Part shown: positions 97-64,000 of the stretch, one piece after another | Layout: every line of letters starts with the position of its first letter | How positions within the stretch are numbered: the stretch's first letter is position 1 | Source of the DNA: Asterochloris sp. CNOR1 | Taxonomy: Eukaryota; Chlorophyta; Trebouxiophyceae; Trebouxiales; Trebouxiaceae | Assembly (NCBI GenBank): GCA_963969365.1 | Contig: OZ017753.1 | Span: 1,054,001 to 1,118,000, forward strand | Reading direction: 5' to 3' | Length of the DNA stretch: 64,000 nt | Notes under the pieces: model-generated | What the model was told of the DNA's origin: nothing | Database searches by the model: none | The model's input: only the letters and a program-made list of their open reading frames with translations | Translations under genes and position numbers: made by a program

Positions 97-3000
97 ATGG
101 TGCTATTTTACTTCCTCTCCCACCGCGTGATCCGCAGCGTGCAGTATGGGGAGAAGCCCCGCAACCGGCTCGACATGTATGTGCCTCGTAATCACTGGAG
201 GATGCAGAAAGGGCTACGCCCTGTGGTCATCTATGTCACAGGTAGGCTGCCTGAGGTCACTCCTGAGGGGCCTGCAGGAAGCCACATGGTGGAGGGATAT
301 AGTGCCATCGCTGGGGGTCACCACTCACGGGTCTGCAGCGGCTGTGGACCGCAGAGGCGCAGGAGCCCAGAACTTGGTCACAAGCATGTAGCGTGCATGC
401 GGCCTATCGCCCATTCTAGTGTCACAGGCTCGACTGCACCCACAACAGCGTGCCTGTCAGTAACACTTTGAGGGTCCACAGCAAGCATTGAGGCGCTTTG
501 TTACACTGCAGGGGGTGCCTGGATCATCGGGTACAAGGCCTGGGGCTCCCTGCTGGGACGGCGGCTCAGCAAGCAGGGGGTCATCGTGTGCTGCCTAGAC
601 TACCGCAATTTCCCACAGGTGAGTCTGCCACATTCAATGAGGACGGGCCATTTGTGTGCCGCTATGGTGACCGCAAGGTGGGTATGCCGCGTGCAGCAAG
701 CTGCTGCTGCACTAAAACCGTTTGCACATCCCACAGAGAGGTCTGCCTCAGTAGCAGAGAGTCCCTGTAGAAAAGCTGCCTAGACCACCCCGACTCCTCG
801 CAAGTGGGTCAGCAGGCCTAAGCAAGCACCACTTCGCTATGTCTCCTGCCTCAGTCACGTCAAGCTGTCATAGGCAGGTCTTGATGGGAGGGTTGTCTCA
901 AGCAGCCTGCAGAGCCATGCTGAAAGCGCTGTCTGGTGCTTGCCTGTCATGCAGCAGCTTGAGCTGAGCGGAGGTGCAATGGTCGATGTGTGCCTGCAGG
1001 GCACAATCATGGACATGCTCACTGACGTGAACACTGGCATCGGCTGGGTCATGGAGAAGATAGGGCAGTATGGAGGTGGGTGGTGTCATCCAACCACCTG
1101 CCCCAATGAGCAAGATCCCAGCCCGCCCATCAGCATTGCTGCCCCCTGTGCAAGCTGCCAACAGCTTGGGATGGCCTGAAGTGGCCTGCCTGGCCAGTGC
1201 AGCACCTGTTGACAGGCGGTGTCCCCCAGCAGAGCAGCACTGGTCCAGCAGAAGCTTGTCAGATTGTCATGGGGTGCCCAAGCAGATGGATGTCCAGTGG
1301 GGTCATATATCTGCATCGATGCTTCCCTGATCTCTGGAGCCCAGGTCCCCAGATGTGTGTGCACCACCCGCAGGTGACCCAGACGACATCTACCTGGTGG
1401 GGCAGTCCTGTGGGGCCCAGCTGGCCACCCTTACGACCCTGGTGCAGGTGGGCACTGATGGGTGACAGCAGGAGGCAGAGCCTTTATGTCTGCCTTCACG
1501 TGCAGCCCAGCACCTGCATCTGCAGCGCAGCATCTACACCTGAGTGGGTCTGTCGCATAGTCGGGCGATCAGCACTGTGCTGCTCAATGTCCCTGCTTCA
1601 ATGAGCTGATCATGCTTGCAGGCCAGGGTGGAGCACAGCATCATTGAGCCAACGCCCCTGGCTGTAGGTTGAAGTGGCACACAGCAGCAAGCCTGTCTGA
1701 CTTGACTGGTTTTGGGCTGCAGCTTCAGATCTGCACCTGCCGGCAGGCCGAGGTGAAGCACCTGTCCCACCTGATTGTTTTTGGGGCTGCCCCTTTGAGA
1801 CCTTCCCCTGCCTGTAGGCCAAGGCGGAACACAGCCACCATCCCTCTACAAACCTGAGTCATGCTGGAACTGCTGCAGAAAGTCCCCTGCCTGTGCCTGC
1901 AGGCAAAGGCAGCGTACAGCAACAAGCCCGCCCTCTTACAGACTTGAGCTAGGCTTTTGACTGCTGCAATCCTCAACCTCGTGCTCGTGCCTGCAGGCTG
2001 AGGTGGAGTACAGCAACAAGCCCCTGCCAGGCGCGAAGCCTAGATGGAGCCCAAGCCACATCAAGGGCCTGGTTGGTGAGCCCTCACTCTTGCTGCCTGG
2101 GGGAGCCATGTCTACAAGAAGGTCCTGGTGGGGAAAGCCTGTCGTGTGCCACCTGCAAGCTTCACTGCCGCAGGCAGAGTTGCTGCTTGTTGCATGCGCC
2201 ACTGTAACACTCTGGCCCTGATGAGCCAGAAGTCATGTTCGTCTGGCAGTCCACTCCAGCACAGATGCAGGCCCTGCACGTGACCAGTGCTGCTGTGCAG
2301 GTGTGTCAGGCGTGTACAATTGTGCCGGGCTGGCCAACTATTTCCATGAGGTAGAGCCTTGCCCAACAACCTTGCACCTCTCCTCTTGTTCCCATGCAGG
2401 GCAACTTGCACAGTGCCCGTTAATGTGCATGAGGGGGGATTGACTGCAAGTAGCATACTGGCTGTCCAACATGCCTCTGGACCACTCTGCACCTACACAG
2501 CGCTTGCCTGCCATGTCTCCTACTGACGTGAGGGCTGCACGGTAACAAAACATGTTTCATGAGCACCCTTGGGCCTCAGCGCAGGGGAAGGGCGTCCACA
2601 TTGAGCATGGGCCCCCGCCTGGCCTCTGCATGCCATGCATCAAGACGTTCAAGTCTCCAGTTCAGTGTCTGCCCGGCTGCAGCGAGGCCTGTACCACAAC
2701 CTGTTTGACCGCATCATGTCAGTCGACGGCAAGACCCAGCTGAAGATGCTGTCCCCTGTGTACTGTGTGGTGAGCTGCTGTTGTGCCAGACAGCTGCCTG
2801 CACCTGCTGAGCATGGGTGCTGCTTGTCCCTTCTGGCAGTGTGCCTCCGGTGCACTGCAGCAACTTGAGGGGTTCACCAGCAGGCCAGGGCCTGTCAGCG
2901 AGGCACACTTGCAGCACTGCAGCCCGGCCGGGGTTCTGTGCGCTCATCCAAGGTGTGAGAACGGGTGCGTTTCTAGACTGCATCTGGGGTGGCCAGCATG

Positions 3001-4342
3001 CAGCAGGGTGCCGCCCATGCCGCTGCCCAGCATCCAGGCCAGAGCACCTCACCAGCTCCCCATGCCACACACCACCTAAGCCAGTTGTGATGCAGGCTGA
3101 AGCGCAGTACGCTGCCAAGATGCCACCAGTCCTCCTGCTGCACGGGACCGATGACACCTGCGCTCTGGTGAAGAACGTGATGCAATTCGAGGAGGCACTG
3201 CGCAAGGCAGGCGTCAAGGCAAGTGGGCGGCTCAAGGTGTCAGAAGTCAGCTGGGTATCCATGTTTCCAGCTGTTGTCGCAGCTGTCCTCTTTAGGGGCA
3301 GCTTCTGTGTGGCCCTGCATCAGGCAGATGTCAAGGTAAGCCTGGGCTTGGTGGCTTCTCAGAGTTTGTCAATCTGCCCTTGGTCTCCAACTGCTACTCT
3401 TCAGCGGTTCCCTGTGAGGCAGTTTGCTGTGGCATTGTGGCCCTGGCGAAAGGCAGGCATAACTATCAAGGACCTGTTGAACATTGGACGGGCATGCAAT
3501 GCACTGGACTGCACTTGATGTGGTGCTTGTGCGCAGCTGCGCAAGTCAAGCACAAAGGCAGGTGGGCTAAACGCCACTTCAGCTAGTTAGTAAAACAGGT
3601 GACAATCTATGAGACGCCAGCGCTCTCTGCTCAGGGCAGGCTCTGCTGATAAGTCTCTCTTACTGTCTGCTCGTGGTGCCATGGGGCACCAGCCGCTCCT
3701 TGTGTGACACTGTGGGCAGCCTGTACCGCTCTCTGCACCTCAGCTGCCTCAGTCTTGTGTGTCATTGCTGCACAGGTGAACCTGAAGCTGTACAAGGGAC
3801 AGACCCACACGAGCCCCCTCATTGAGAACCCCATGGCGGTAAGCAGCTGGCAATGCGACCGCCACAGCTGTCAGCACATGGCCTGCTTTGCTCGCACCTG
3901 CATGTCAGTCAGCTGCAGTGATGGAGACGGGCCTGCTTTCTGACAGACACTTATTGGGCCCATATGGGGGCAGCTGCCTGGCTAGACAAGCTGCCTGCTG
4001 CACACTGCACAGCATCAACCTGCGTGGCAGTTGTGAGACTCAACAGAGCCTCTTGAGGCTCGCACAGCTGCTGCTGCCCACTTTGACAACCTACGGCAGC
4101 TGCTGTACTCATGCCTACTTTAGACTGGGTACAATCTGGGTTGTGCTACCACCTTCAGATCCGTCAGCCACGTGCACTGCCCTGCACACCACTGAGCATT
4201 CTGCGTTTGACTGCAGGGTGGCACAGACGAGTTGATGGACGACATTCTGTCCATGATTCGGGGCCAAGAGGTAGTCACCCAGCAGTTTGGCTTGTGCCCA
4301 AGGTTCCTCATCAAAATGGCATCCATGGTGTGCCCTTTCTAG
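97..4342 (+). CDS. ICME: Isoprenylcysteine alpha-carbonyl methylesterase (ICME-like), 5' partial
   Basis: Serine esterase of the alpha/beta-hydrolase fold. Plant homologues reverse carboxyl methylation of prenylated proteins at the ER/Golgi membrane. Exons: 97-241, 512-618, 1000-1075, 1374-1447, 1997-2075, 2301-2350, 2683-2769, 3096-3218, 3776-3838, 4217-4342 (stop TAG). All phases agree and give about 310 residues. Visible motifs: [14 protein letters not shown], the oxyanion-side [12 protein letters not shown], the nucleophile elbow GQSCG (GQSAG in plants), the acid region LLLHGTDD, and the catalytic His in YKGQTHT. The ATG at 97 follows an acceptor (CTGCAG), and plant ICMEs carry an N-terminal membrane segment before this point, so the true start probably lies upstream. 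The exon ending at 3218 uses a GC donor. A GT donor at 3333/3334 is also in phase and would add 39 residues. Longer introns hold decayed copies of exon edges. The assignment to the family is firm; the substrate is inferred. Confidence 0.9.
1613..1935 (+). repeat. About five decayed copies of the acceptor and 5' edge of the ICME exon at 1997
   Basis: The used edge is an acceptor followed by GCTGAGGTGGAGTACAGCAA. Similar blocks, each an acceptor-like (T/G)CAGG or GTAGG plus 25-40 bp, start near 1619, 1663, 1744, 1815 and 1899. The last one keeps GCGTACAGCAACAAGCCC before it diverges. None continues into the rest of the exon, and their frames are broken or short. They read as remnants of tandem duplications across the intron/exon junction. 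Confidence 0.7.
3300..3470 (+). repeat. Decayed copies of the 3' edge of the ICME exon at 3096-3218
   Basis: The used exon ends with codons for LRKAGVK followed by GCAAGT. At about 3311-3338 the sequence GCCCTGCATCAGGCAGATGT, then CAAG and GTAAGC, repeats this edge with a canonical GT donor. A weaker copy (CCTGGCGAAAGGCAGGCATA) lies at about 3441. The reading frame stays open from 3096 through the first copy, so the first copy's donor could be used as an alternative. Confidence 0.55.
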
Positions 4343-4906: not shown

Positions 4907-7900
4907 TCAGCGCTGATCCCATTTCACTCGCCGATGCCGCGGCCTGTCCTCTGGTGGGCCAGGCAGCGCATCTGCAGATGCAGAGCTGTCGGCTGTAACT
5001 CCCCCCATCTGGGCCGCAGTGAGGCCATCTGGCACTGCTGCCGGGTGCAGCGCAGGGTAAGAGCCTGGAGCCTGGGCAGACAGCCTGGCAGCAATGGCCG
5101 CCGCTGCAGCCTTTGCCTGCACAGCAACCGGCAATAAGCTGAGAGTCCTGGAGGCAGTGCGAGCAGATGCAGCATTGTGTGAGGCTGGTAGTGTTTGCTT
5201 AGTGGGCCTACTACGATACGATGCTCTTGAGAACTGGGACTCACCGCGGCAGCCACGTCACTGCTGGGCTGTTGCTGGGCAGCGTGTTGAGCTGGGAAGC
5301 TGCTCACCACATGCCCTGGCCTGCAGGTCAGACAAACATGTCCAGGTGAAGCCCACCCATGCATGTGCAGCAGGAAGGGCCTCTCCAGCAGGAGTCCAAT
5401 GTCTGCAGCTGGCATGCCAACAGCAGCACCCTGCACTTTTCGGCTGAGCCATGCACAATGTGGTGCAAGTGTGCAGCAATGCCGTCATGTGCAACACTGG
5501 AGCGTGTCCAGCCAGTCTGAGGTCTGTCTGGCATCATCCTGCTTGTGCTGAGCTCGCAGATCAGCACGCAGTCGAGCTCCCCACCTGGAGTAGAGCGGCC
5601 TCTGAGTCACGGGCACGGGCGGGGGCGCAATGGGCTTGGCTGCCTGTCGCTTGGGAGCCACAATCGTGGCCCGCATGCTCTGGTCCCCGCCTGTGCTGCC
5701 CGAGGACACAAAAGAGCTGCCAAAGCGGTTGCTCAGCCCCCCCCGCACGCCCTGTGCGCTGGTCCCACCAGCTGCCAGCTGAGCCTTTGTCGGCGGCTCT
5801 TGCTCAGGGTGGGCAGCCGAGTACTGACCGCTGGGCTGCTGGTGAGTCTGCTGCTGGTAGGTCTGCTGCTGGGGCGGGGGCTGCTGGTACACGGACTGAG
5901 CGGGGTAGGTGGGGGCTGGCTGGTGGGTGGATGCTGGTGGCATCTGGTCTGGGTCCTCGTGTAGGTGTGCCCACTCAGGTGGCGGCTCATACTGAGGCTG
6001 CGCAGCAGGCGCTATGCCCGTGCCGGCGGCGGCCAGACGGGCGGCAATCTCAGCGGCACGCTCGGCCGCCGATTTGGGCGTCGCAAGCACGGCAGCTGGG
6101 GCCGGGGACAGCTGCGGGGCCGGCGCCTGGAGCATTGCCTCTTCAGCAGGAGCAGTGGCTGCAGGCTGGGGTGGCAGGACCACCCCCGCAGCAGCGGCTG
6201 CTGCCCGTGCCATGGCTACCACCTCCGCCTGCACCCTGGCAGCCTCTGACAGCTCCCCACCTGGAGCTGCAGCAGCAGCGTGGGGCTGCTGAGGCACGGC
6301 TGCCTCGCCGGTAGCGGCGCTGGCTGCGGGGCCTGTGCCGTCGGCGGGTGGGTCGCAGTATGTGGCGCCTACTTCTGCGTGCGTGCCCTCCACTGTGGAC
6401 TCAAATCCCCCTTTGCTGAAGCCGCTGGGGACTGCTCCCTGCCCCTGCTTGGCAGAGGCCAGGGCTGCCTGTGCTGAGTTTGCAGGGGCATATGTCCTGC
6501 AGGGCATGATGGCATGAAGCTGTCAGCTCTGAAGAAAGGCACCTGTGGAACTGTGACGGCATGTGTTGTAGAGGATGGTAGAGCAGGGCAAGTCTGGCAA
6601 GCAGGCACCCGCTGAAAGAGGTGCAGACATCACAGGGAGTCATCAGACTTCCAGCGCAGGCTCAACGGCTTTGTGTGTGCAGTGGCGAGAGGCCTGACAC
6701 CGCTGCTGCCAATGCCTAGGCTGTCCTGCACAAGGCAGGCTGCTGCTGTGCACAGCCTCACTATCAGCGGCGGAATCTCCCGGGACCCCAGCACAAGCTA
6801 ACAGGGCAGGCGCACTCACCCGCTGGCAAAGCCCAGCCCTGCACCGCCCACAGGGGCCCCACCCCTGCCCCGGCCACGGCCCCCACGGCCTCGCCTGCCC
6901 CCCCCACGCCCGTGCCCCCGCCTGAAGCCGCCCCGAGCAGCCACCTCCAGCAGTGGCTCAGGCACCTCCTGGCTGGCGGCTGCCAGAGATTCCACCAAGT
7001 CTCCTGCAGGATAACGGCAGCAGTGTGGGTTCAAGGGTCAGCAACGATTACACAGCTGCCTGTCTGTCATGCTTGCTGCCTCTTGGCAGACCCAGCAGGA
7101 AAACAGCGGCAGCATGCAGTGCAGCAATGAGAGCAGCACTTTTGCCCCTGGGTGTCATGCGCAGCCTACCTGCCTGGGGGAAACAGGGCAACTGCATGGT
7201 CTGCCCCAGCGTGCTCACTGGGTCTAGGGTCAAGCGGCAAAATCCCAGCCCAACATCGACAGCGAGGCCAACCCACCTGCAAAGCGCGTCTCCCTGGGCG
7301 TCACCAGGGTGTAGGCAACTCCCTCCTTGTCCCCAGCCCGCCCCGTGCGCCCAATGCGGTGCACGTGCGTGTCGATGTCCTTCCCGGCATCATAGTTGAC
7401 CACTGACTTGATGCTCTTGATGTCAAGGCCGCGGGCTGCCACATCAGTGGCCACCAGCACATGCTGCTTGCCTGCCTTGAAGTCGGCCAGGGTGGCCATG
7501 CGGCTGTGCTGATCCATGTCGCCATGGATGGCCACAGCCCTGCAGGAGGCATGCATGTTGGCGTGCAGGGAGCACAGCAGCAGGCATGGCCAGTGCCTGA
7601 CAGGCGGGTATGCACACTGCCTTTGCTGCAACCCTGCAGGCCAGCAGAAACCTGCAGCAGGACGGATGGCGCCTGCCATGTGGCTGTGCTGGTCCATGTT
7701 GCCAATTATGGCCACAGGCCTGCAGCTGAAACTGCAGCAGGTGAGCAGGCACGGCCAGTGACCTCCACGCGAGCATGCACGCTGCGTCTGCCACAGCTTG
7801 CAGGTCAGCATGATCGCAGCAGGGATGTGAAGTGGAGACAGCCATTTGGCTGTGCTGGTACATATCAATGTAAATGGCCAGCAGCCTATACAGTAGCGCT

Positions 7901-10900
7901 AAGCAGGAGCCACACTCCAAAATTGTGGCATGCTCAGCATGTGTTCTGGGTGGCGAGCCAGGGTGCGTGAACTGCCAGTTATCAATCGGCACAAGGCGCT
8001 ACAGCTGCAGGGATACCCGCAGCATTGCCACCAGGCCCCAGATGCTTGCGTGCAGGGCTCCCAACACTTGCTGCATGCTGGCAGCCCTGCACTGCACATC
8101 AACTCCGGGCACATTGCTCCACCGGACTCTGAAAAATGGCCCCACCCGAGAGCCGCCTTCACATGCAGTCAAGCACAGACTGCAGGGCTGCATAGGAGGG
8201 CCACAAGAGCTAGGCACAGCAGCACCAGGCGCTGCTCACCGGATGCCTGCTGCCTTCAGCTGGTCACACAGCTGGTCTACCCGCGCCTTCTGGGAGGCAA
8301 AGATGAGCACGTCCCCTTGGTCGATGAGCGCCTGCAGGCGGCTCATCAGCCAGACCTTCTTGGCATCGTCATTGTCCACAACATCCACCACCTGCAAGGG
8401 GGCACCTGCATCAGGCGCATCTGACAAGGGGGAGTGCTGCACCAGCAACAGCTGCCTGCAGCTGGTAGGGGCAGCTGTCTCAGGCTGTGCGCATTGTGCT
8501 GGGCTTGCAGTGGCTTGGGTAAGCTTGCCAGGTTTGACGCACCAGCCTGCCTCAATGTGGGTACGTGATACAGACTGACGGCTAGGGCCGTGAATGACAG
8601 AGTCTACACCTTACCCAGCAACATCGTGCAGCACCCCAGATGTGCAGCGCTCCAGAAAGGCGCTCCAGATAGCAGCCTGCCGCATTATGGCGGGGAGATT
8701 CCCCTGCCATAGCTGCCAGCCAGCACCAGGAGCACAGCTTGCTTCCCCAGAACGCATTTTTACATAAAGAATCTCTAGCAAGCTCCAGGAAGTCAGACCT
8801 GTCGAAATTCCTTGTCGCTTGAGTCTCCCTCACCCATAACCAGTTAAAAAAACATAGAAGCCCTAAGTGGGCTGAAGAACAGGCCGCAGGCAAGCCACTG
8901 CCCCATCAGAGTATGCCATGTCAACCAGAACTTAGACAGCCTCTGCGCTTGTCATTGCAAGACACAATAAGGACACAACGGCCCACCTGTCGGATGTCCT
9001 CGTTGGCGGCACCCACTTCTCCAACAGTGATGCGCACGGGGGAGGTCAAGGCGTCCCTGACCAGGCGGTCCACCTTCTGCGGCATGGTGGCGCTGAACAG
9101 CAGGGTCTGACGGGTGGGGCGCACCTGCCCAATGATGCTGCGCACCTGCAGCCAGCACACTGGTGAGGAACGCAGAGCAGCATCACTGCTGGTTGCTGTG
9201 GACGGGGTGCACCTGTGGAGGAATGCAGCACCCCTCCAGACAGCATCTCCCGCTCAGCAGAAGGTCCTATTGACCAGGCGAAAGATCAGGCCAGCAGACT
9301 GAAAGCTGCAGCCCAGGCAGTGACTCAGCACAGCTTGGATCCAGGCAAAGAGGCAGAGCATAAAGGACTGTTGAATCAAAGGACAAGGTCCAGTCAGCAG
9401 CTTCAAGAAACCTCACTTGGAAGCACACTCTGATAATCAGTGATTGATACTTTAGTGGAAGTGCTGACAGGCTACTGTTGATCACTACCTCAGACCCTAT
9501 GTCAAAGTCGAGCCAGCAGATGGCTCACCTGCGGCTCAAACCCCATGTCAAACATGCGGTCTGCCTCATCAAATACCAGGTAGGTCACACGTAGCGTGTT
9601 GCACGCCTTCATCTTGATCAGGTCGATCATGCGCCCAGGGGTGCAGACTGCCACCTGCAGGTAAAGAGAAGGCAGTGTGGCAGCCTGTGTGGCACACTGC
9701 TGCCCTGCAGCTGTGCCTTCAAGCATTGCAACAATGTTGATAGCAGCAGTGAGCGTGATGCCTCTGCACTGTGTTCATGAGCTATGCCTGCCCTGCTGCA
9801 GGGTGAGCACCTCACCAGGACAAGCTCCCAGATACCAGCACAAACATCACCACATCTGCCCTCTGAAAGGCAGACCAGCTTGCAGAACGCAGGGCAGCCT
9901 TTGACCCCGCTTCGCAGCAAAGCTGTGTCCAGTGATGACACAGCCCATGGCTTGAACTTGATGGACTGCTGATTTCCCGACTTTGCCAAAGAATGCATCA
10001 CAGTGCCAGACTTCTGCTCACCTGGGCCCTGCCTGGATTCCTGAACCGCCTGTGCATTCTCATGCAACCCTGCTGAGCACAGACTCACCAGACAGGCCGC
10101 GGCAGCGTGAGCCCACCTTCTCTGAGGCACCCCAAGATGTACAGAAAGGCGCTGTGCACAAGGTGCAGGCTGCCATTCATTTGACAGCAAAGCACAGCCA
10201 GAACTGACCTCAGCTCCTGCCTTGAGCTCCTTGAACTGCTGGTGCTTACTCAGCCCTCCAAAGGCCGCACATATCTGCAGAGCATGCGGCTTGCTGAACC
10301 GCCGCGTCTCCCTGTGAATCTGCTCTGCCAGCTCCCGAGTGGGCGCCACAATCACACCTATGGGACCCTCCCCTTTCTGCAGCTCAGGCTGGTCCATAAT
10401 GTGTACCACCATGGGCAGCACAAACGCAGCTGTCTTGCCAGACCCAGTCTTGGCAATGCCCTGCAGGGGAAGAAGTTGAGAGGGGCTCAGGCACACGTTG
10501 CAGCTTGCCTCACACACTGAATGGTTATTGGTAATGCCATCCTTGGGCGCTGTCTGGCTTGAGTGCATAGTCTCCCACTTTGTGCAGGGTTGGCAGCTGC
10601 ATGCTTTGGCAGGCAAGTCTGCCACTCGGTCAACTGCACTTACCAGGACATCCCGCCCAGACAACGCTGACGGTAGAGCCTGTGCCTGGATTGCAGTTGG
10701 CTGCTGGTACCTGCAGCAATAACATCTGCTTGCTTTGCCCTGGGCTTGCCTGCAGACATGCAAGCAGGAGCTGCAGAAGGCGCTGAGAACTCACCCTGCC
10801 TTGACAATGACAGACATGAGGGCTGCATCAAAGCTGCACTGGGCAAAAGATTGTATGGGCTTAGGAGCGTCAAAGCCAGAGACCCTGATGCCCAGCTGCC

Positions 10901-13772: not shown

Positions 13773-14068
13773 GCTGGCAACAACGTGGGCGAAGCTGTAT
13801 GCAGGTCTTGAGCAGCTGCCTTCACAGCAATTTGTCTGACTTCTGGGTTGATTGTCTGCTAAGTTGAGATATGCTGGAAACGCACTGGACGGCAAGCTGG
13901 ATCTCCCTTTATATGATTTCAAGGGAGACAGCCCTGACTGGGCAGCAATCGAAATGCCCAATCTTGCTGTCAGGAGGGCGTTTGAGTATTCTGTTCGCCT
14001 TCTGCACAGCGTCTGAGGCCAGCTGCTACAGATCTGCAGCCTGCTGCACCAATCAAAGGACCCATTCA
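13773..14068. promoter_or_regulatory. Presumed bidirectional promoter of the RH24-type helicase (-) and PEX2 (+)
   Basis: Only 296 bp separate the two head-to-head start codons. The interval contains an AT-rich CCCTTTATATGA around 13903. Neither a TATA box nor a transcription start can be assigned from sequence alone; the promoter role is inferred from the layout. Confidence 0.4.
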
Positions 14069-35467: not shown

Positions 35468-36592
35468 GGGTTGCTTGGAGCCCAGGCTCAGTCAGCAGCA
35501 GCGCCCCCTGTCAGCAGCACTGGGCCTCCACAGTGCTACCTATATGCAGTCGACATGGCATACTGCGGCAGCGAGGGCCTGGTCACTGACAGGTGGGTTC
35601 TGCCTCTCACAATTTGAATATCACCAGGGCAGCCCCTGAGGCGTCTGAACCCTGCACGACCTGCCATCGTCGAAACACGCTGAAGGGAGCTCTGATCCCT
35701 GCTGATTACTAGTCAGCACTCTACCATTGAGGTTTGTGACATGTGTGGCCAGGTGGCTCATTCCAGCAGCCCATCACCTGATCTGTGCTGCTGGGAGGCA
35801 GGCAGGTGCACTGCTCTGCTGACGATCAGCTGCAGCAAGGTAGCAACTGGTCTCATGACCGCCGCTGTGAGGCAGCCTGGAGCACTGCTCTGCTGGCAGT
35901 CAGCTGCAATGATGCAGCTGCTGCTGACATGCGCGCTGCTGTGTGCAGGGACACAGCTCTACTGGTAGTGAGCTGCAATGAGGCAGTGACTGGGCTCTGT
36001 GCGCCTGCCGTCAACACATGCATCACCGTTGCGGGCCCCAGCAATGCCACTGTGCAGTATGTCAACCAGGTCGACGGGACAAGCAGCTTCTACAACACCT
36101 TCATTAGCTGGGATGTAAGTGCCTTGCTGCTGTGCAACACTACCTGCGACAGCACCTGCTCTCACGCCGGCAGCTTGTGTGCACTGCACAACATCACCTG
36201 ATCTGCTGTCATGCAGTTGCCAGCTGCCTTGGCCTGCCCCGACCTAGGAGCCTGCTGTTCTGTCCTCTGGTCCCTGCAAGCGTGTGCACGCGAGTTGAGC
36301 AATGCTCACCGGTCATCCCATGCGCTTCCTGCACTGATGCTGCGCAGCGCCTGACCCCTGCCCTGCTGCCCTTGTGCTGCAGCCATCCTACCTGGGCCCC
36401 ATCACAGTCAGCGTCAACTGCGCCCTGACCAATGCAGCTGGGCAGCCGCTGAGCGCCCCTATCCAGCCACTCACCTTTTCCGTTCTGCCCATTGTGGCCG
36501 TCAGATCTTCTGCCTACCGGATTGGCGGCTCAGTGATGCAAGTCGCAGGCACTCCTGCCCCCGAGGGGCCATCAGACAACCCTGCCAAGTGA
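35468..36592 (+). CDS. Unrecognised Cys-containing protein, 5' end not found
   Basis: Three phase-consistent exons: 35468-35592 (GLLGAQAQSAAAPPVSS... CYLYAVDMAYCGSEGL), 35949-36114 (DTALLVVSCNEAVTGLCAPA, ending SFYNTFISWD) and 36383-36592 (PSYLGPITVSVNCALTNAAG, ending SDNPAK then TGA). About 167 codons. Regularly placed cysteines, many small and hydroxylated residues and no charged clusters suggest a secreted or wall-associated protein, but no signal peptide was located. I recognise no family. The intron before 35949 contains two decayed copies of that exon's start. The gene converges on the MscS-type gene, with only 129 bp between stop codons. Confidence 0.5.
35810..35935 (+). repeat. Two decayed copies of the 5' edge of the exon at 35949
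   Basis: The used edge encodes DTALLVVSCNEAVTGL (ACAGCTCTACTGGTAGTGAG). Upstream, about 35810-35860 reads as TALLTISCSKVATGL-like codons and about 35880-35925 as TALLAVSCNDAAA-like codons. All three copies keep the TGCTCTGCTG...AGCTGCAA core, spaced about 70 bp apart. Confidence 0.75.
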
Positions 36593-36721
36593 CCATGTCA
36601 CACAGAGAGTAGCCCAACGTTGACTTAAGCCCAAGTTGTTCACATGCACCAGGTGCCAGTGTCACAGTGCGAGGACCAACAAGCAGAAGGCCCCACAGAG
36701 ATTTCATCGTGATTTCATTCC

Positions 36722-54649: not shown

Positions 54650-56833
54650 ATGGACCAGCTGAATGTGGCAGCCATTGTGGCTCAGGCGCAGCACCTGCAG
54701 GGCTGGTGTGCACAGCTGGAGCTGCAGCTGCAGGGCAAAGACATTGGTGCGTCGTCAGTTGCCAGCCCTCCTGCATAATGTTCACACTGTGGCTTCTCTG
54801 CCCTGGGGTGTTGATCTGATGCCACCTGCCTGGCAGCACCAAGCTGTGCGCGATGTCCATCTGGGCCAGGTAGAGGTGGCATCTGCCCAGCTGCAAACAC
54901 AGCTGTAATCAATGCTGGCAGCACCCGTCTGTGAAAGTGGTGCTGGCCGTGCAGTTTGACGAGAAGGCATCAGCAGCAGAGAGGGCACCAGCAGCAGGGA
55001 GGGCATCAGCACTGAACACTACCCACCTCAAATGGCTTTGGGCCACAACTAGCTCCGACACAGGGTGTTACTCTGATGCATGCAGAAGTCAGGTTGCTAG
55101 CAGCACATCTCCCCAAACGCTGTTGCCTGTGAGTGATTACTGCCAGGTGTGCTCTCCTGCACTGCACACAGTGTCAGGGGCCAAGCAGGTCTCACTCTGT
55201 GTGTGCAGAGGTGCACAATCTGCTTCAGCGCAATGACCGTCTGGTGAATGAGGTGCACAAGTCCATCAGCGCCAAGAACTTGTCTGACCAGAAGATGCGC
55301 ACAAAGCTGCTGAAGGCAGAGTCGCAGGCGCACACCCAGGTGAGCCATGTGTGCTGGTCTCACACTATGTGCCATGTTGCACACGCATGCAACACTACAG
55401 CACCCAAGCAGGGCTGAGGCCTCTTGCTTGCAAGTGAATGTGGGAATCGTAGCCAGTTCCGGCTGCTGCAAGCAAAAAGCGCTTAGGCAGTGAGATTTGG
55501 TGATGAGCACCAACATGTGGCGACGGCACAAAACCTGCCTGCACCCTGACTCCTGGGGCTGCACAGCCACAGGCAGCCTTCAGCCTACAGCGCCCCATAT
55601 GATGTGAGCAAGGGTCTTTGCAAGCTACTGGCCTTGGGTGCGGCAGCCTGGCGCCTACCTGCACCGGCATGCTGGACATTTGCAGCTGCAGGTGGGGAGA
55701 TCTGAGGATGCAACGCAGTTGACCTGGTGCTGTGGCAGGCACGCAATGCAGCGCTGCAATGGCATGCCTGTCGTGACTGATAGTTCTGCAGGCCTCTGCT
55801 GCAGACCGGTGGGTTGTCTTGCTGCATGAGAGGCATGGCTGTCTAGCTGCCAGTGCTTCGCTGCAGGTCTGCCCGAGGAGGTGCATGCCTGCCAGCAGAA
55901 GGCTGGCCTGTCAATCTGCTGAAACATGTGCTGTTCCCGCTGCAGGTGAGTGGAGTGTCAGAGGAGCTGCGTGCCTGCCACCAGAAGTTGAGGGGCCTGG
56001 ACAGCAGCCTGCAGCAGGCGCTGCGAGATGCAGGTGGGCACAGCCGCTACTCCTGCAAGGTGGACTGCAGGGTGAATGGCCTGAGCAATGCAGGGCTGGC
56101 CCGCAAGGGCCGCTGCCTGCCGAGACAGGGGCTCCCCAGAATCTGTGAGCCACAGTGAGGGACAGCGGCTGCTCGCCAATGGTTCGAGCTCTGCACATGG
56201 CGCTCAGGGCTTGGGACAGAGCGTCTGTGGACAGGGCTGGCAGCAAGCAGGCCTCTGGCCACCAAGACGCCCGCACACTCAACGTCTGCTTGTCCACTTG
56301 CAGTGCTCTGCGCCCCTGACTCGACCAAAAATTAAAATTCACAAAAGACAATGTCAGCCCCTGGCCTGTAGGGACTGCTGTTGCCAAGGCCAACAATGCA
56401 GAGAGGAGGCTGGCAGCATCCGAGCAAGGCGGCGCCCAGCTTCAAATGGAGAATGCACGGCTGCGCCAGGCGCTGGGGGACAAGACTGCGCTGCTGAAGA
56501 CTATTTCTGAGGTCAGCACAGTGCTTTCGGGGGCGCAGCGCATGTTGCTGAAGCATGTCCAGTACCATGAGGGCATCTTCATGGCGTGTCCTGTCGGACT
56601 GCTTACAGTCGCACATGCCCTGCCTCCATTCACACTGCCTGACTGAGGTCAGCCCACAACCCTTTCATGCACTCAGGACAAGCTGCCCACAACTTGAGCT
56701 TGCACAAGCTTTTGCCTGACAGCAACCTCATGTGTTAGCAATGCAGGCACTGCAGGTGCAGATGAGGCTGAGCTCTAGCAGCGAACAGCAGCTCGCACCC
56801 TTGGCAGCTGCAGCCTCCCAGCAGTGTCAGTGA
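54650..56833 (+). CDS. Small coiled-coil protein, unknown family
   Basis: Five exons with matching phases: 54650-54746 (starts MDQLNVAAIVAQAQHLQ), 55209-55339 (EVHNLLQRNDRLVNEVHKSI), 55946-56033 (VSGVSEELRACHQKLRGLDS), 56372-56511 (AKANNAERRLAASEQGGAQL, then ENARLRQALGDKTALLKTIS) and 56747-56833 (ALQVQMRLSSSSEQQLAP, stop TGA). About 180 residues, almost entirely heptad-type helix rich in Leu, Gln, Glu, Lys and Ala, with no globular domain. I cannot name a family. It lies in tandem upstream of the ciliary gene CFAP251, so a centriolar or axonemal role is possible; that rests only on neighbourhood. The start was chosen as the first ATG before the helix with an in-phase donor. Confidence 0.7.
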
Positions 56834-57116
56834 CAACATTGCAGTTCAGCAACAGCCACCAAGCACGCCACATGAATCCCACCCTGTAGCCTTCCAGACT
56901 CGGCTACACCCATGCAGCACTGAGTCCTTTTGATGTCCCACCTCTCTGGCCAGACACAGAGAGGGGCACAGGCCCTGGTCAATCCAGTGAAAGCATCTGG
57001 CACGTGCAATCTTTTGGGCCCAGATTCTCAGCATGCAGAGCAGCACAGACGCCCTCAGCCTTCAGACATTCCCCAGGCCATGCTTATGCCAGCAGGTGAT
57101 GCACACAACAGCAAAC

Positions 57117-60100
57117 ATGGCTAGCCCTCTGGCCCTTTCTCCATCAGTGAGTTCGCCCAGAATTGCAGGCCAGCAAATGATGTATTTGCGCTCCATCTGG
57201 CGCAGTCAAACCTAAAATGTAAATTGCGACCCTGCGAGACCCGCACATGGCGACCAAACAGCAGAGTCAGAAGAAAGCTTTGGTGACTGCCCTCATATTG
57301 TGTAGCATCAAAACTATTGTACAAGCAGGCATTGCGTTGGTTGCTACTCACCATGTCTGCTGCTGCAGGAGCTGAGCTGGACATATGGCTTGTGTGTGTC
57401 AGCAGGCCTGCTCAACATCTCGGTGAGTCTTCCGCCTGGAAGCATGCCTGCAGGGTGGCCATTGTCCACCAGTGTCGGCTCCTGCAGCGAGTCAGTTTTG
57501 CGCTGCCATGCCTCTGAGACTGCCTTGCAAATGGCATGTAGTGTGTTCCTCACTGTGCTGCTTGCCAGCTTGTACAGCCCTGGTGTCTGAGAATGGGGAG
57601 GTCTCATCCCTCGCTCGACTCTGCAGACGACGCGGCGGGAGCGCATGTGCTATGCGGCAGCCCACACCCTGGTCATCTATGATTGCCAGGAGCGGCAGCA
57701 GGCCCTGCTGCAGGGCCACTGCAACGCAATCACCTGCCTGGCCACCACAGACGACAGGACAGTCATCGCCTCAGCAGACCAGGGGCCTGACTCCCTCATC
57801 GTGCTGTGGGACGCAGAGACAGGCAACCCCATCAGGACCCTGCCACGGCCGCATGCTGCTGGTGTGCAGGCCATGGACCTGACTGCAGACGGGCGCCAGC
57901 TGGTCACTGTCAGCGCCCCCTGCGAAGGTGTGCAGGAGCTGGCACGCTGGGACCTCAGCAGCCCTGCCAAGGTAAAGGCGGTGCTGGTCTGTGGATTCCT
58001 GCAGTTGAGGCAGAGCTGGCAGCTGCCACTGCTTCTAGCCGAGGTCCGCAGGCCATGCACCTGACAGCCGACTTGCATTAGCTGATCACAGTCAGTGCCC
58101 CTACTGATGAGAGGGCTTGCCGCACTGAGACCTCATCAGCCCCTGCAAGGTTGGGGCAGTGTTGTCCATTGCTTAGGACAGCCGTGCAGCTGGCAGCTGG
58201 CACTTCTGAAAGCAAAGGCGTCGACCATCAGCAGCCCTGCCAAGGCGGCGCAGGAGCCTGCGGGCGCTCAAGGTCTGCAACCTCGGCGCCCCTGTAAAGG
58301 CAGCGCCACTTCAGCAAGCTGGCAGGCTGTGCAAGTGCTGCAGCCACAGCAGGCCCATCAGGGTCTGTGCTGTGCAGATTGGTGACATTCAGGCTATGTG
58401 GGTGTGCACGAAAGTGCCGTTCTGCAGTTCCATCGCAAAGCCATGGGCTGTGGTGGTGCGCCGCATGCTGTGCCCCAGCACTTCTGTGTCAGGCGCCGCC
58501 GTGGGCCATGAACTTCTCACACCACGCTGTCGTCTCCCTTGCAGGTGCCCACAGCCTGCATGAGGATCCCTTCAGGTGATGAGCAGACCACAGTGCGCTT
58601 CGACCCCAGGGATTCAGCAGAGGTGCGCCCAGCTTGCAGCCACCCCATTCTGCGTTGTGTGCATCCCCTGGCCTGCCCCCTGTGACAGGTCCCTGCAGCA
58701 GAGGGAGCTGTACGGCAGCCAATGAGGGGCCATCAACGCCAGCAGGTCTGGCCTGTGATATGCTGCGTGCTGCAGCTGCCTGACGATGGCGTGTTTGGTC
58801 TGCTGAGGCTACATCTGTCTATCTGCTCCACCCGTTGCAGCAATTTGTTTGCACTTCAACATCAACCAAATGCTTACCTGTGCTGCTGCAGATTGTAAGC
58901 AATGGGAGGCTGCGTGTGTACTTCTGGGAGGCCACAGATGCCCAGGTGTCCAGTCTGCGCTTCTACTCGCCGCCCCTGGTAGCTGCAGACTTCAAGCAGA
59001 GCATTGCTGACTTCACCGTCTCCACCTTTCTGCCACGCAGCCACCAGGCAAGTAGAGGCTCTGCAACCATTAATGCTATTCAGGGGCCCTGCTGCTGCAT
59101 GAAGCATGGGCTGGCCAGAGGCTGGTGGTGCCAAGGATTGTCACCAGCTGGCTTTCATAAGGTCAGCTCTGCACTGCACGTTTGTTATGCTCAGAGTAGT
59201 AACCTGTCTGTCAGGGGCATGCATCCGTGGGGCCTTGCTCCAAGTCATCAATGGTGGCAGTTGCGGGTGGTGCAGCTTGCATCAGGCTGCTTCTCAGTTG
59301 TCAGCACATCTCCCGGGGGGCTCATAGATTAGGCCACCTTCTCAGGACTGGCCTTGCCTGCAGTCGTTATGTTCTGGTGCCACCTTGGATGCTGCCCTCT
59401 GCTGCAGGCAGTGACAGGCACCAGGGACGGCGACATCATCCTGTGGGACAAGGGCAGCGCAGGCACAGGCCCAGAAGCAGCTCCTGCCCTGAACAAGCGG
59501 GCAGCCAAGGTCATTCGCATCCACAGCAGCTGCATCACTCACTTGTCCATCGTGGACAAGTTCCTGGTTTCAGGTGCTGCTGACGGCTGCGTGCGCTTCT
59601 TCGATGCCAAGCTGCGCCTGGCGGCCTGGTTTGAGGTGGGTCAATCTGCTTTGGGCTGCAGTCTGGCTGAGGCCCAGCATCCATGGGAGGCTGGCTGCCT
59701 GCATGGCTGGTGGTCCTGAGGATGGTCCACAACCAACAGGACTTTTCAACCCTTTCTCCCTGTGCTGGGATACATGCTGGACACCCGCATGCATGAACTG
59801 ACAGGCAGCCTCATCATGAGCACAGGCTGATCAGCCACTTGAGGAGCCAGCAAGCAGCTGAGGCCTGTATCACCTTGAGCAACCCACTCCCTGTCCCCTG
59901 CAGGACATCAATGCTGGGGAAGTCAGGGCAGTCTCCTTCTCTGCTGCCCCTGCCTCCATCCCCGCCGGCGCAGAGACCGGCGACACCAACCTGTTTGTGG
60001 CCCCAGACTTCATGGTCTCCACAGCTGGGGGCTCCATCCAGTCTGTGCGCTCAGTCTCCTTTGACGACCCAGTTCAAGCCCCAGTGGCCCACTCTGTTGT

Positions 60101-63100
60101 CCTGCAGGTCAGTCACTGGGGGTTCCGTCCCTTCTTGGTCTGTGCCTGCCCTTGCAGCTGTGCCAGAACCTGCAGCGTTGGGGTCGTGAAATGATAAGAT
60201 GCATTCTGCTTTGGACATAGTTTTTACTCATTGACGGTTCTGTGTGCACAAACCAGAGTCCTTGACAAGTTGTCCTCACCCATGCAAGGGTCTTCCTTCG
60301 AGAGTTGCTGGAGGATTTGTCTGACCAGCAGTGTCCTGCAGGGTCTGGTGGCTGACATCAAGGTGCTGGTGGCAAACCCTGTGAGGCCAGAGTTTCTGGC
60401 TGCCGGCGCAGATGGTGTCCTGCAGACCTGGGACTTGACTTCCCATGAACTCAAAGGTGGGTGCTTCCGAGCACTGGCACACTGTGGTTGCAGCAAAGCC
60501 ACCTCTGCATGCCCTGAGGGCACCTCCATTGCCCTGCAAACATGCCCAGCAACAATCTCACGGCACAGCTGTAGCCTGTCTGGAGGCAGTCTGAGGGCAC
60601 TTCCCCCTCAGGGGTGCCCAGGCTGCCCCGGCAGAAAGCAACCCGCCCTCTGCACACCGGAACTCAAGCAGTCCACTGATGCCAAGCGCCCAAGCCACCT
60701 CCTGCTGCTGCTTCAGACTCTGGGCGCATCGAAGGCGCCCCTGGCATCAGATGCATCAAGCAGCCTCCTGCCCGCCGAGCACAGCCCAAATCACCACTTT
60801 TGCTGGCATAGCCCCCAGGCACCCCTTTCCCTGCACACCATGGCTCCAGCCACCCCTGCTGCAGAGCGGTGAAGCTGCCTCCTGCTGCAGAGCGGTGAAG
60901 CTGCCTCCTGCTGCAGAGCGGTGAAGCTGCCTCCTGCTGCCTGCAGACGCAAGGCGCATTGAGGGTGCCCCAGACATCAGCAGCATGACCTTCAGTAGGG
61001 ATGGGGGGCTGCTGGCGCTGGGCTTGGGCAATGGGGGCCTGCGCATCTTGTCAGGCCAGACCTGGGAGGTGGTGGCGGAGATGCGGCATGCCAAGCGGGT
61101 GGGTGGCAGATCCTGCAGGCCGATGCCTGCTTGGCAACATGCGGCCACCCAGCCCAGAGACTGCTGCCCCTGGCCACAAGCTGGCTTCTGGGTCAGATCA
61201 GGCATGCAATGTGCACTGCCCCCTCATGCTGACCTGATGCTCACTGCTGATGCTCTTGGCTAAGACCGCAATACCTCTGTGGTGATGCTCCCAGCTGCCC
61301 CACGCGACCCCTATTCACCCTGGCCCGGGGCGCATGCCGCATGGCCCCGCACAACGCCACTGCCTCTTGTACGGGCTGGATGTCCAGCTGGCTCCTCCAG
61401 CCCAAATACCTCGTGTGACAACGCCACTCCCACTGGGGAAATCGTTGCGTGTCTTGGTGCAGGCGGTGACTCGGCTGACCTTTTCATCTAGTGGGCGCCA
61501 GCTGGCAGCCGCCACCGCCGACCACCACGTGCTGCTGCTGTCGCTGGTGCCCTGGCGGGGGACGCAGACGCGCTGGGAGTACATTGGGCGCCATGCAGCC
61601 CATCATGGGGACATTACAGGGCTGGTGTTTGGGGAAGCGCCCTCTGGCCAGACCAGGCTGTTCTCCATCGGTGAGAGGCTCAGCACTCCCAGTTGTGCTT
61701 CCTTGTGGGAGGTGTTGTGGGGCTGGGTCTGGGGCGAGGCCCTCTCAGGCCAGCCCAGGCTATTCTGCAGAGGTGTAGGGCTTGGCAGTGGGTGAGTGGG
61801 CACACACCAGGCCCTGAGGGGCAGACCGTGAGGGCGAGCAGCTTGCAGTCTTGACTGTTAGCAGGCACTGCGCCGTCCTTTCGGGGCCCCTCTCTCTTTG
61901 TCAAGGTTGACCAAGCTGTTCTGCAGAAGCACTGGCTTGGCAGTGCACATTGTGCTTTCACAGAGGCCTGCATGACTGCGCCTGATCAGCTGCTGGCCCC
62001 CACCCCACTGCATCCCTGCCCGCACCTGCCCTCCTCAGAACGACAAGCGAGCTGCCTTGCACGCAGAGCCCCCTCATCCCTGCAGGCTTGGACGGCATGC
62101 TGGCAGAGTTTGACCTGGAGGGCTCCTCAGTGGGCGCTGGCCTGCGCACAGTCTCCCTGGAGTGCTGCACTCCTGCCGGGGCGGCTCCCTGTGCCCTCAG
62201 CTTTGCCCCGCCGCTGCCCTACTATGCAGAGGGCAGCACCGACACCCTGCTGGTCGCGCCTGACAGCGCACACAAGCTGCGGCTGTACAACAGCGACTCA
62301 CGCCAGCGCGTGGGCACCTTTGCGGGGCCAGTCTTCTGTGGCCCCCTGCAGCAGAGCCTGGTGTTTCGGTGAGCGGCTGCTGTGGGTTTCGCAAGCCTGC
62401 TGGATGTTGCGCTGCCAGCGTGTGCGCACCTTTGCTGGCCTGGCCCTCTGTGGGCCCCTTCAGCAGGGCCTGGTGTCAAGTGCGCCAACCTCAAAGTGGC
62501 TGTATGACCCAGCCTGCAGGATGTCCTGCTGCCAGCATGTGGGCACCCTCTGAGCGCTTGTCAGGCCAGCCAAGCCTGGCATTGGCTTGAATTTGACCAC
62601 AGCATGTGTGCCTGGCCCCCAGGTTGGGCACCTTGGACAAGACCTACACGACCTGCCTGCCCGTCTCCATCAGCCCTCATGTTGACGATGCCTTGACCTG
62701 CAAGCCTGGCAAACTTGGACAAGAGCTGCATGGCCTTCACTTGGCTGATACTTGGTACTCTCAGCATTATATTGCCTTGTGCTGCAGGTCTGGCGCCTCT
62801 GACAAGAGCTACATGGCCTTTCGTGCAGCTGACCGGGTGGTGGGTCTCATGAGCTGGCCGCTGGATGGGGACCCAGCTAAGTCTGTGGGCGTGATTGCAC
62901 ACCCCGGGCCTGTGCTGACGGCCGCGTTGACGCATGATGGGCGCAAGCTGCTGAGTGCAGGGGTGCAGGACGGAGTTGTGAATGTGTGGCAGGTGGGCAG
63001 TATGCTGGGCTCCTGTCCCTCACAACAGTGGCACATGCGAGTTACAAGTCCCCACTCTGCGTTGTTGATGGCCTTATGGTGAAGATGTGAAGAGGTGGCT

Positions 63101-64000
63101 GCTGCTGCTGAGAATGCAGCTGTTTGTTCCATCATCCCCCTGACGGGGATGTGTGAGTGGTGCGGCAGAGGACAACCTGCCTGCTGCATAAGCTTGTTGC
63201 TGCTCTGCAGGTCCACACAGCAGCTCTCGATGCGGCCGTAGCAGCCAGTGCAGCAGGTCAGCAGACACCTTTCAGCAGCCTGCTGGAGGGGTCAGCTGAG
63301 GACTTTAGCCTGGACGATATCCGCGACTACTTCTGCTATGCCCAGATACACAGCCAGGTGAGCATCTGCACTGCATGCTTCCTTGCGCTCAGGGACCTGC
63401 GTGGTATTGTGAGGGCAGATGATGTGAACGCGCAAGGTAAGCAGCTGCTCTTGTGTCAGACAGCATTCTGACTCGCACAGCTATCCTGCTCACTGCAATA
63501 TGGGAACCTCAAGGGGTTGCCACCTTTGCAACCACCCTGCCTGAATCGTCTGCAGGTATGCTGTGCAGGGAGAAGACAGCAGAGTGAAGAGTAGCCCAAT
63601 GGGGCTTTACCGTTGTGGCCACAAACCCACCCACACGGCCTGAATCTGCCCAAGGTCTCATGCAGACAAACAACAACTGAGTCCATTGCAGCTTGAGGGG
63701 GCCATAACTTATCACCTCTACATGCCCTGCCTGTGCCACAATGCCAGCATGCTGTGCAGGAACAGGGCACCACAGTGCAGTGCAGCCTCAGGGCACCAGA
63801 TCCCTGTGACCTTCACCCCCCACCTGACGCCATTCTGCGCTAAGCAGCGCCCCAATGCTCGATGTGCAGGGAGAGGGCAGCGCAGTGCAGCGCAGCCTGA
63901 GGGGGCAAGTTCCTCTGGCCTCCATCCCCCAGTTGTGCCACGCCCTAGGCTTCTACCCTTCAGCCGGGGAGGTTGCAGACATGCAGCGTCAGCTGCAGTA
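57117..64000 (+). CDS. CFAP251: Cilia- and flagella-associated protein 251 (WDR66), 3' partial
   Basis: WD-repeat subunit of the calmodulin- and spoke-associated complex at the base of radial spoke 3, needed for flagellar motility. Exons: 57117-57146 (MASPLALSPS, tentative), 57369-57422 (ELSWTYGLCVSAG), 57627-57971, 58545-58622, 58892-59047, 59408-59635, 59904-60107, 60342-60456, 60947-61098, 61463-61670, 62086-62368, 62788-62992, 63211-63357, 63870 to beyond the window. Phases agree throughout; about 778 residues are present. Diagnostic strings: LLQGHCNAITCLATTDDRTV, ASADQGPDSLIVLWDAETGN, VTGTRDGDIILWDKG, VSGAADGCVRFFDAKLRLA, GVIAHPGPVLTAALTHDGRK. The C-terminal LDDIRDYFCYAQIHSQ and LCHALGFYPSAGEVADM match the EF-hand-like tail of WDR66. 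The donor at 59047 is GC. Its presence implies that the organism makes, or recently made, motile cells. Confidence 0.92.
58100..58255 (+). repeat. Decayed copies of the 3' edge of CFAP251 exon 3
   Basis: The used edge GGACCTCAGCAGCCCTGCCA followed by AG|GTAAAG is echoed at about 58127-58156 (GAGACCTCATCAGCCCCTGC, AAGGTTGGGGCAG) and about 58227-58247 (CCATCAGCAGCCCTGCCAAG, G). Spacing is roughly 100-180 bp within the intron. Confidence 0.65.
60710..60770 (+). repeat. Decayed copy of the 5' edge of the CFAP251 exon at 60947
   Basis: TTCAGACTCTGGGCGCATCG, then AAGGCGCCCCTGGCATCAG, copies the used CTGCAGACGCAAGGCGCATT, then GAGGGTGCCCCAGACATCAG. It lies about 230 bp upstream of the exon. Confidence 0.75.
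60856..60933 (+). repeat. Three exact tandem copies of a 26-bp unit
   Basis: Unit CTGCTGCAGAGCGGTGAAGC plus TGCCTC at 60856-60881, 60882-60907 and 60908-60933, immediately before the acceptor of the exon at 60947. Each unit contains a TGCAG acceptor-like site, so three decoy acceptors precede the used one. Confidence 0.93.
61735..61945 (+). repeat. Decayed copies of the 3' edge of the CFAP251 exon ending at 61670
   Basis: The used GCCCTCTGGCCAGACCAGGC, TGTTCTCCATCG|GTGAG is echoed by GCCCTCTCAGGCCAGCCCAG, GCTATTCTGCAGAGGTG at about 61739-61776. A weaker copy follows at about 61905-61940 (GTTGACCAAGCTGTTCTGCA). Confidence 0.65.
62400..62555 (+). repeat. Decayed copies of the 3' edge of the CFAP251 exon ending at 62368
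   Basis: The used exon end contains CAGCGCGTGGGCACCTTTGC and TGGCCCCCTGCAGCAGAGCC, then TGGTGTTTCG|GTGAGC. About 62414-62486 repeats it as CAGCGTGTGCGCACCTTTGC and GGGCCCCTTCAGCAGGGCCT, then GGTGTCAAGTG. A third short copy, GCTGCCAGCATGTGGGCACC, lies at about 62529. Confidence 0.85.
62625..62755 (+). repeat. Two decayed copies of the 5' edge of the CFAP251 exon at 62788
   Basis: The used edge CCTCTGACAAGAGCTACATG, GCCTTTCGTGCAGCTGACC is matched by CTTGGACAAGAGCTGCATGG, CCTTCACTTGGCTGATAC at about 62714-62752, and less well by CCTTGGACAAGACCTACACG at about 62631. Confidence 0.75.
63550..63835 (+). repeat. Two decayed copies of the 5' edge of the CFAP251 exon at 63870
   Basis: The used edge is GTGCAG|GGAGAGGGCAGCGC then AGTGCAGCGCAGCCTGAGGG. 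A copy at about 63752-63825 reads TGTGCAGGAACAGGGCACCA, CAGTGCAGTGCAGCCTCAGG and even keeps a CACCCCCCACCTGACGCCA echo of the later exon sequence. An older copy at about 63562 reads TGTGCAGGGAGAAGACAGCA. Spacing is about 115 and 190 bp. Confidence 0.85.

Follow-up and report, generated by a model that had tools for sequence, protein, structure and literature searches.

Decayed tandem copies of exon edges in the introns of the green alga Asterochloris sp. CNOR1

Introns of the green alga Asterochloris sp. CNOR1 contain decayed copies of the exon edges that border them. In a 64-kb window of its genome (contig OZ017753.1, positions 1,054,001 to 1,118,000) and in other loci, a copy of the sequence around one of its own splice junctions was detectable in 84 of 379 introns, about 1 in 5. 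The copies have a constant polarity and a direct, tandem structure with a preferred unit size; they are of local origin in the four introns searched genome-wide and are associated with greater intron length. We consider it probable that small tandem duplications are tolerated at junctions, where the copy joined to the exon is maintained by selection and the other decays within the intron.

Excess, polarity and structure of the copies

The window belongs to a 56.4-Mb assembly of 21 contigs, 18 of them of ~2-4.5 Mb; this agrees with the Asterochloris glomerata genome, for which 56 Mb and a GC content of 56-62% across 98% of the length are published (PMC6652019). Gene models were built with our own generalized hidden Markov model finder, which started from conserved exons of the window and was then self-trained on the window plus 18 10-kb stretches. 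The finder recovers ICME, an RH24-type helicase, PEX2, a C2-domain repeat protein, WW/GYF, eIF5B and a WD40 protein with EML-like propellers (CFAP251-like), and six of the recovered genes have Pfam matches. From 367 predicted introns, 39 were excluded because they fell outside 90-1600 nt or had a flanking exon score <12, leaving 328 (106 from the window and 222 from 18 other loci); the same filters removed 55 of 434 in a larger set of 379 introns (284 kb; window and L002-L023), whose mean length is 393 nt. PEX2 and Cys-protein junctions are dropped by these filters and were tested separately. Each probe, 40 nt of exon plus 12 nt of intron, was aligned to the remainder of its own intron, with dinucleotide-shuffled introns, other introns and the reverse complement as controls.

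At a score of at least 90, 50 donor and 43 acceptor probes matched their own intron, against 0.5 and 1.05 in shuffled introns, 1.15 and 1.75 in other introns and 0 and 2 in the reverse complement. Matches numbered 64 (donor) and 61 (acceptor) versus 4-9 in controls at a score of at least 80, and 36 and 36 versus 0-1 at a score of at least 100. This large excess confirms for our sample the original prediction, made from the window, that introns carry copies of junction edges. The polarity that it described is equally clear: among 259 internal exons, 41 matches of acceptor edges lay in the upstream intron and 1 in the downstream intron, and all 47 matches of donor edges lay in the downstream intron. 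Probes from the middle of 161 exons gave 2 upstream and 5 downstream matches, so that whole-exon copies are not the rule, the C2-repeat gene excepted, and the match rate fell from 6% at the exon edge to ~1% from 40 nt inward. The predicted reach beyond the window was also found, since 17 of the 18 outside loci have at least one positive intron, compared with 25 positive introns of 106 in the window. The 51 introns of four loci that were added once training was complete gave scores of at least 90 at 2 donor and 5 acceptor edges, versus 0 and 0 in the reverse complement and 0.4 and 0 in shuffled introns. The excess over controls, the polarity and the held-out loci together exclude chance matches.

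In the larger set, 43 introns carry donor-side copies, 48 carry acceptor-side copies and 7 carry both (5.4 expected), and a single copy was detected at most junctions (31/43 donor introns, 40/48 acceptor introns). Extrapolation from 84/379 suggests ~20,000 introns with a junction copy genome-wide, given about 9 introns per gene and about 10,000 genes (PMC6652019).

Self-comparison of 244 kb (pairs within 1.5 kb, score at least 18) yielded 278 direct pairs and 4 inverted ones, as against 4 pairs in one shuffle, and inverted repeats were accordingly rejected. Merging left 250 pairs, of which 117 link an intron to an edge or piece of an exon, 53 are intron-internal, 11 intergenic, 44 exon-exon (many from the C2-repeat gene) and 25 other mixtures; intron-internal pairs (53 in 149 kb) and intergenic pairs (11 in 32.5 kb) have similar densities. 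Of the 379 introns, 84 contain a total of 114 junction pairs and 42 a total of 50 internal pairs; one shuffle gave none. When the 16 best of the 114 junction pairs were aligned, homology continued across the junction, with exon edge and intron copied together. The period to the nearest copy is 80-119 bp at 48 of 91 junctions and falls sharply in frequency beyond 120. Homology length is close to or above the period in better-preserved pairs (68/63 in L008, 84/100 in L010, 117/103 in the window) and short in others (70/115 in L014, 64/114 in L003); its median ratio of 0.39 over 114 pairs is what decay would leave. The predicted duplication across junctions is supported as the source by these direct tandem copies, together with the polarity and the excess over controls.

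Longer junction copies have about 65-90% identity. The range of ages that had been noted holds, from the best-preserved long copy of the window (RH24, 12232-12335), which lacks 13 bases, is 85% identical with the gap included and is near identical elsewhere, to the ICME copies at 1607-1929, with 64-83% pairwise identity. Judged by this spread of identities, the process may be continuous. Minisatellite-like arrays are few (60855-60940 and 35787-35986).

Origin of the copies and competing explanations

Based on these results, we propose that small tandem duplications arise in the non-coding DNA of the alga, with a unit of mostly ~80-120 bp at junctions. A unit straddling a splice junction would leave two copies of it in the gene: the copy contiguous with the remaining exon would give the right mRNA and stay under selection, while the other would be spliced out as intron and decay, the extra copy being tolerated because splicing discards it. 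Repeated events at one junction would build ladders of 1-4 copies, each adding ~100 nt of intron. An acceptor duplication would be harmless only if its unit carried the branch point, that is, ~30 nt or more of intron, because the exon-joined acceptor would otherwise lose it. Splicing would ignore the decoys, selection would act as the filter, and the mutation would be break-repair fill-in or slippage. Orthologues confirm that the exon-joined copy is the coding one at four eIF5B junctions, and ICME lends support.

The position of the units fits this scheme in part. The exon part has a median of 42 nt and is at most 70 nt in 95% of 61 junctions (nearest copy at 60-135 bp). Where the nearest copy lies at 50-135 bp, units include 29 nt or more of intron in 34 of 36 acceptor and 26 of 27 donor cases, and the branch-point motif CTNAC is most frequent 20-34 nt upstream of acceptors. 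A simulation of uniform duplication does not reproduce the unit position (Kolmogorov-Smirnov [KS] 1e-5, 0.016 and 6e-8), and a 30-nt intron filter improves the fit (KS 0.28; 0.037 with longer indels).

Could the copies instead be functional decoys or alternative sites, kept by selection for regulated splicing? Among copies reaching the junction, the AG is retained in 14 of 32 acceptor copies and the GT in 12 of 40 donor copies, and in ICME an in-frame copy carries GT while the donor that is probably the true one is GC. However, over half of the copies have lost their site, 18 of 31 retained sites (for donors, either GT or GC) would shift the frame, and the nearest-copy distance has no multiple-of-three bias (20, 22 and 19 cases with remainders 0, 1 and 2), all of which makes such a function very unlikely. 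Of the many decoy splice sites that were predicted, more than half have thus already been destroyed. Creation of the introns themselves by tandem duplication of AGGT-bearing exon pieces (the Rogers model), with remnants still visible, involves an identical type of mutation, and the predicted donor CAG/GTGAG and acceptor CTGCAG/G are compatible with it. Yet the two ends of the same intron are not alike beyond chance: 24 of 307 introns scored at least 60 (19.7 expected) and 3 of 307 at least 70 (4.9 expected). One intron of the 307 does have alike ends, at scores of at least 90 (0.1 expected) and at least 100 (0.05 expected). Since intron ends are unlike as a class, the process is one of lengthening, and we regard creation as highly improbable. 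Mobile introner-like elements or dispersed minisatellites landing in introns would also give intronic repeats of several copies each, but this is the least credible of these explanations. The units contain the gene's own coding sequence and match their own junction, not unrelated introns, and in a whole-genome search that skips very common words, the four repeat-bearing stretches searched (at 12.1 kb, in ICME, in eIF5B and at 61.6-62.6 kb) matched only themselves (4/4), on which ground dispersed repeats were rejected.

Several points weigh against the proposed duplication and decay. The exons are gene-finder predictions, and the orthologue check covers ICME and eIF5B (10/23 junctions confirmed). 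Donor units obey the same 30-nt limit as acceptor units, though the branch point gives no reason for it. Intron-side homology of copies exceeds the 95% control level in 24 of 72 cases, which is weaker than less decayed simulations predict. Finally, a uniform model predicts too few junction pairs: the observed ratio of junction to internal pairs is 114:50, or 2.28 (bootstrap 1.67-3.32), whereas the simulated ratio is 0.54-0.73, at a mean intron length of 357-420 nt, when exons are mostly frozen, decay is neutral and the 30-nt filter is applied. Ratios of 0.8-2.5 were obtained without the filter when all internal events were accepted (the highest, 2.46, at a mean intron of 260 nt, compared with 393 nt in the real set), and of 1.68 and 2.12 in two runs that down-weighted internal events.

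This last discrepancy raises the possibility that junctions are special, because a factor linked to transcription or splicing (R-loops, exon-positioned nucleosomes or splicing factors on DNA) raises duplication there, or because selection favors it. Junction pairs are indeed ~3-4 fold above filtered uniform simulations at similar intron length, and their unit size is most often 80-119 bp, in contrast to a more even spread of internal pairs over 50-129 bp. Young pairs (at least 85% identity), however, show no clear junction excess (16 junction versus 13 internal) and agree with the simulations (three runs, p 0.06-0.71). Internal pairs are not clearly clustered at intron ends (n=35; left edge within 30 nt of the donor in 14%, right edge within 30 nt of the acceptor in 11%, 10% expected), and donor and acceptor sides are about equal. 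Gene ends, which have the same frozen-exon advantage, carry copies in 3 of 38 cases (all stops) and splice junctions in 100 of 731; the two rates cannot be told apart (p 0.46), the gene-end sample being small. A junction-specific process therefore seems to us unlikely. The excess of old junction pairs may reflect the longer detectability of exon-anchored copies, given that young pairs fit better, or a real hot spot; for young events, we conclude that general tandem duplication plus tolerance by splicing suffices. Across identity bands in the 379 introns, junction and internal pairs number 16 and 13 at 85% or more, 33 and 5 at 78-85%, and 37 and 17 at 72-78%; gene conversion involving an exon and its copy is one conceivable cause of the 33-to-5 excess.

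Intron growth and known routes of intron change

The median length of introns with any detected duplication is 482 nt (n=112), compared with 303 nt for those without (n=267), and junction copies are present in 9 of the 116 introns shorter than 300 nt but in 31 of the 50 that measure 550-800 nt. Detectable repeats account for 9.6% of intron bases in the 328 introns, a lower bound because old copies vanish. The original prediction had presented the copies as growth of existing introns at their junctions. Growth is favored by the load of copies in longer introns and by the negative test for creation; a process peculiar to junctions did not emerge, repeats being present also inside introns and between genes. 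We are doubtful of the stronger proposal that intron length is largely set by recurrent, still ongoing ~100-bp duplications with a ~3-4 fold preference for junctions, with the branch point as gatekeeper and tens of thousands of decoys seeded.

Tandem genomic duplication is established as a source of new introns (reviewed in PMC3443670; potato, PMC4974935; Drosophila, PMC2891723). As in the Rogers model of intron gain, the duplication in the alga is intragenic and tandem, and the extra copy would be spliced out, leaving the protein unchanged. In that model, however, duplication of an exonic AGGT creates a new intron, whereas here the unit straddles an existing junction and an old intron lengthens. 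Gao and Lynch (2009), cited by PMC3443670, PMC4974935 and PMC3488318, reportedly found internal gene duplications of exonic and intronic sequence to be frequent in eukaryotes and are said to have stressed new introns; in contrast to those, the units of the alga are ~100 bp, span one splice site and alter neither the coding sequence nor the number of introns. Break repair gives rise to a known class of small tandem duplications, which resemble ours in being direct, adjacent and short (PMC8355091). Fill-in at breaks dependent on Pol alpha-primase and Ku is a feature of that class; what differs in the alga is a junction unit of mostly 80-120 bp and an outcome measured as intron length. Introner elements (PMC9860276) likewise place repeat-like sequence in many introns of one genome, but as dispersed copies in many genes, whereas the copies of the alga are private to one junction (4/4 stretches searched).

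Among the open-access matches listed, with subscription journals largely outside, we found no description of growth of existing introns by junction-spanning duplication together with the branch-point filter, which is weak evidence of novelty. To our knowledge, intron lengthening without transposons is poorly documented. In the alga, the frozen exon edge provides a built-in reference for each event, such that growth steps can be read in single introns, and each copy-bearing intron offers a natural experiment on how the spliceosome chooses between the true and the duplicated site. The branch-point rule is a direct prediction, and both intron length and splice-site choice become testable. Gene finders call for caution, as our own was misled at an ICME junction.

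Copies in individual genes

Coordinates are collected in Table 1. Of the seven genes named in the original prediction, five (ICME, the RH24-type helicase, WW/GYF, eIF5B and CFAP251-like) were recovered by the systematic scan and PEX2 by a separate test; for the Cys-protein gene the acceptor is putative.

Table 1. Gene models, exon edges and their copies in the window (positions within the 64-kb stretch)
Gene	Span	Strand	Feature	Basis or identity
ICME (isoprenylcysteine methylesterase-like)	97..4342	+	Gene model, 10 exons	Gene finder; Pfam alpha/beta hydrolase
ICME	590..813	+	Donor edge (exon end 618) 590-628; decayed copy 775-813	74%, period 185
ICME	1607..2023	+	Acceptor edge (exon start 1997); upstream copies 1607-1643, 1653-1694, 1803-1844, 1888-1929	Self-comparison family
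ICME	3198..3345	+	Donor edge (GC donor near 3218); in-frame GT-donor copy ~3335, 117 nt downstream	Finder model, orthologues
RH24-type DEAD-box helicase	4907..13742	-	Gene model, 18 exons	DEAD 2.2e-51, Helicase_C 1.3e-28
RH24	7495..7863	-	Acceptor edge 7495-7697; intronic copy 7675-7863	68%, period 166
RH24	9116..9245	-	Acceptor edge 9116-9157; copy 9204-9245	71%, period 88
RH24	12116..12335	-	Acceptor edge 12116-12232; tandem copy 12232-12335	97% over 66 nt
PEX2	15631..15748	+	Donor edge 15631-15676; copy 15703-15748	Score 138, 0/1000 shuffles
C2-repeat	18942..19072	+	Acceptor edge 19029-19072; copy 18942-18985	Junction scan
C2-repeat	30690..30810	+	Acceptor edge 30748-30810; copy 30690-30753	Junction scan
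WW/GYF	32047..32202	-	Acceptor edge 32047-32083; copy 32166-32202	81%
WW/GYF	33271..33430	-	Donor edge 33380-33430; copy 33271-33321	81%
Cys-protein	35787..35986	+	74-bp array, 2.8 copies, leading into putative exon edge	Array detection
eIF5B	39260..53117	+	Gene model, 24 exons	Gene finder, close homologues
eIF5B	40178..40322	+	Donor edge 40178-40241; copy 40259-40322	Junction scan
eIF5B	42444..42566	+	Donor edge 42444-42475; copy 42535-42566	Junction scan
eIF5B	43043..43200	+	Donor edge 43043-43101; copy 43142-43200	78%
eIF5B	45793..45911	+	Acceptor edge 45883-45911; copy 45793-45821	Junction scan
eIF5B	46629..46832	+	Acceptor edge 46783-46832; copy 46629-46679	80%
eIF5B	47303..47662	+	Donor edge (exon end 47358); copies 47426-47492, 47603-47662	Junction scan
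eIF5B	48753..48981	+	Donor edge 48753-48790; copy 48853-48890; further internal tandem copy 48899-48981	Junction scan
eIF5B	49481..49614	+	Donor edge 49481-49514; copy 49581-49614	Junction scan
eIF5B	50262..50768	+	Donor edge (exon end 50303); copies 50358-50401, 50455-50498, 50565-50608, 50724-50768	Self-comparison family
CFAP251-like	55870..55987	+	Acceptor edge 55956-55987; copy 55870-55901	84%
CFAP251-like	57840..58218	+	Donor edge 57840-58044; copy 58023-58218	Alignment
CFAP251-like	60666..60986	+	Acceptor edge 60898-60986; copy 60666-60756	Junction scan
CFAP251-like	60855..60940	+	Perfect 26-bp array in intron, 3.3 copies, just before acceptor	Array detection
CFAP251-like	61624..61787	+	Donor edge 61624-61685; copy 61726-61787	Junction scan
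CFAP251-like	62302..62820	+	Single intron copied at both ends: donor edge 62302-62430; copy 62414-62547	Alignment
CFAP251-like	62625..62820	+	Same intron as above: acceptor edge 62707-62820; copy 62625-62737	Alignment

The ICME protein is identical to the Astpho2 JGI protein wherever both gene models agree, the overall identity of 84% being due to differences between the models. In the ICME exon modeled at 3096-3335, our finder placed the exon end at the copied donor. The resulting insert of 39 residues is absent in the Trebouxia and Myrmecia orthologues, and the true donor is therefore probably the GC site 3218/3219 and the exon end at 3335 wrong. The 3218/3335 pair is the best candidate for a competing splice site, and 3096-3345 may capture a hand-over between a GC donor and an in-frame duplicated GT donor. 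For eIF5B, the best-matching named algal protein is that of Trebouxia (84% identity). All ten of its junctions at 46976-52798 are gapless against four algal orthologues, and the 13 upstream junctions, which fall in poorly conserved sequence, are predicted only. Donor-edge copies occur at four of the ten gapless junctions, where the exon-joined copy is therefore the coding one.

An eighth gene with copies, at two junctions, is the C2-repeat gene (16501-30899). Its model is very long, with glycine- and serine-rich repeats and many similar exons, and it contains eight of the nine exon-exon repeat pairs in the intron modules of the window. The small Cys-protein gene (~35450-36600, plus strand) was missed by the finder; its array matches the putative acceptor edge at ~35949 with a score of 147 (0/1000 shuffles), and no Pfam match was found at ~35.5-36.6 kb. 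No Rfam family reached its gathering score in the window.

GC donors make up 6% of the predicted donors in the 379 introns, and the acceptor signal is very strong, with T, G and C each at 95-97% at positions -5 to -3, which is partly a product of the finder's model. The CFAP251-like gene (54166-63587) is a WD40 gene with EML-like propellers, the 3' end of which (63556-63587) may be mis-modeled; its name is a ciliary one, and we know of no flagellated vegetative cells in this alga. The 26-bp array in one of its introns is among the youngest duplications that we observed.

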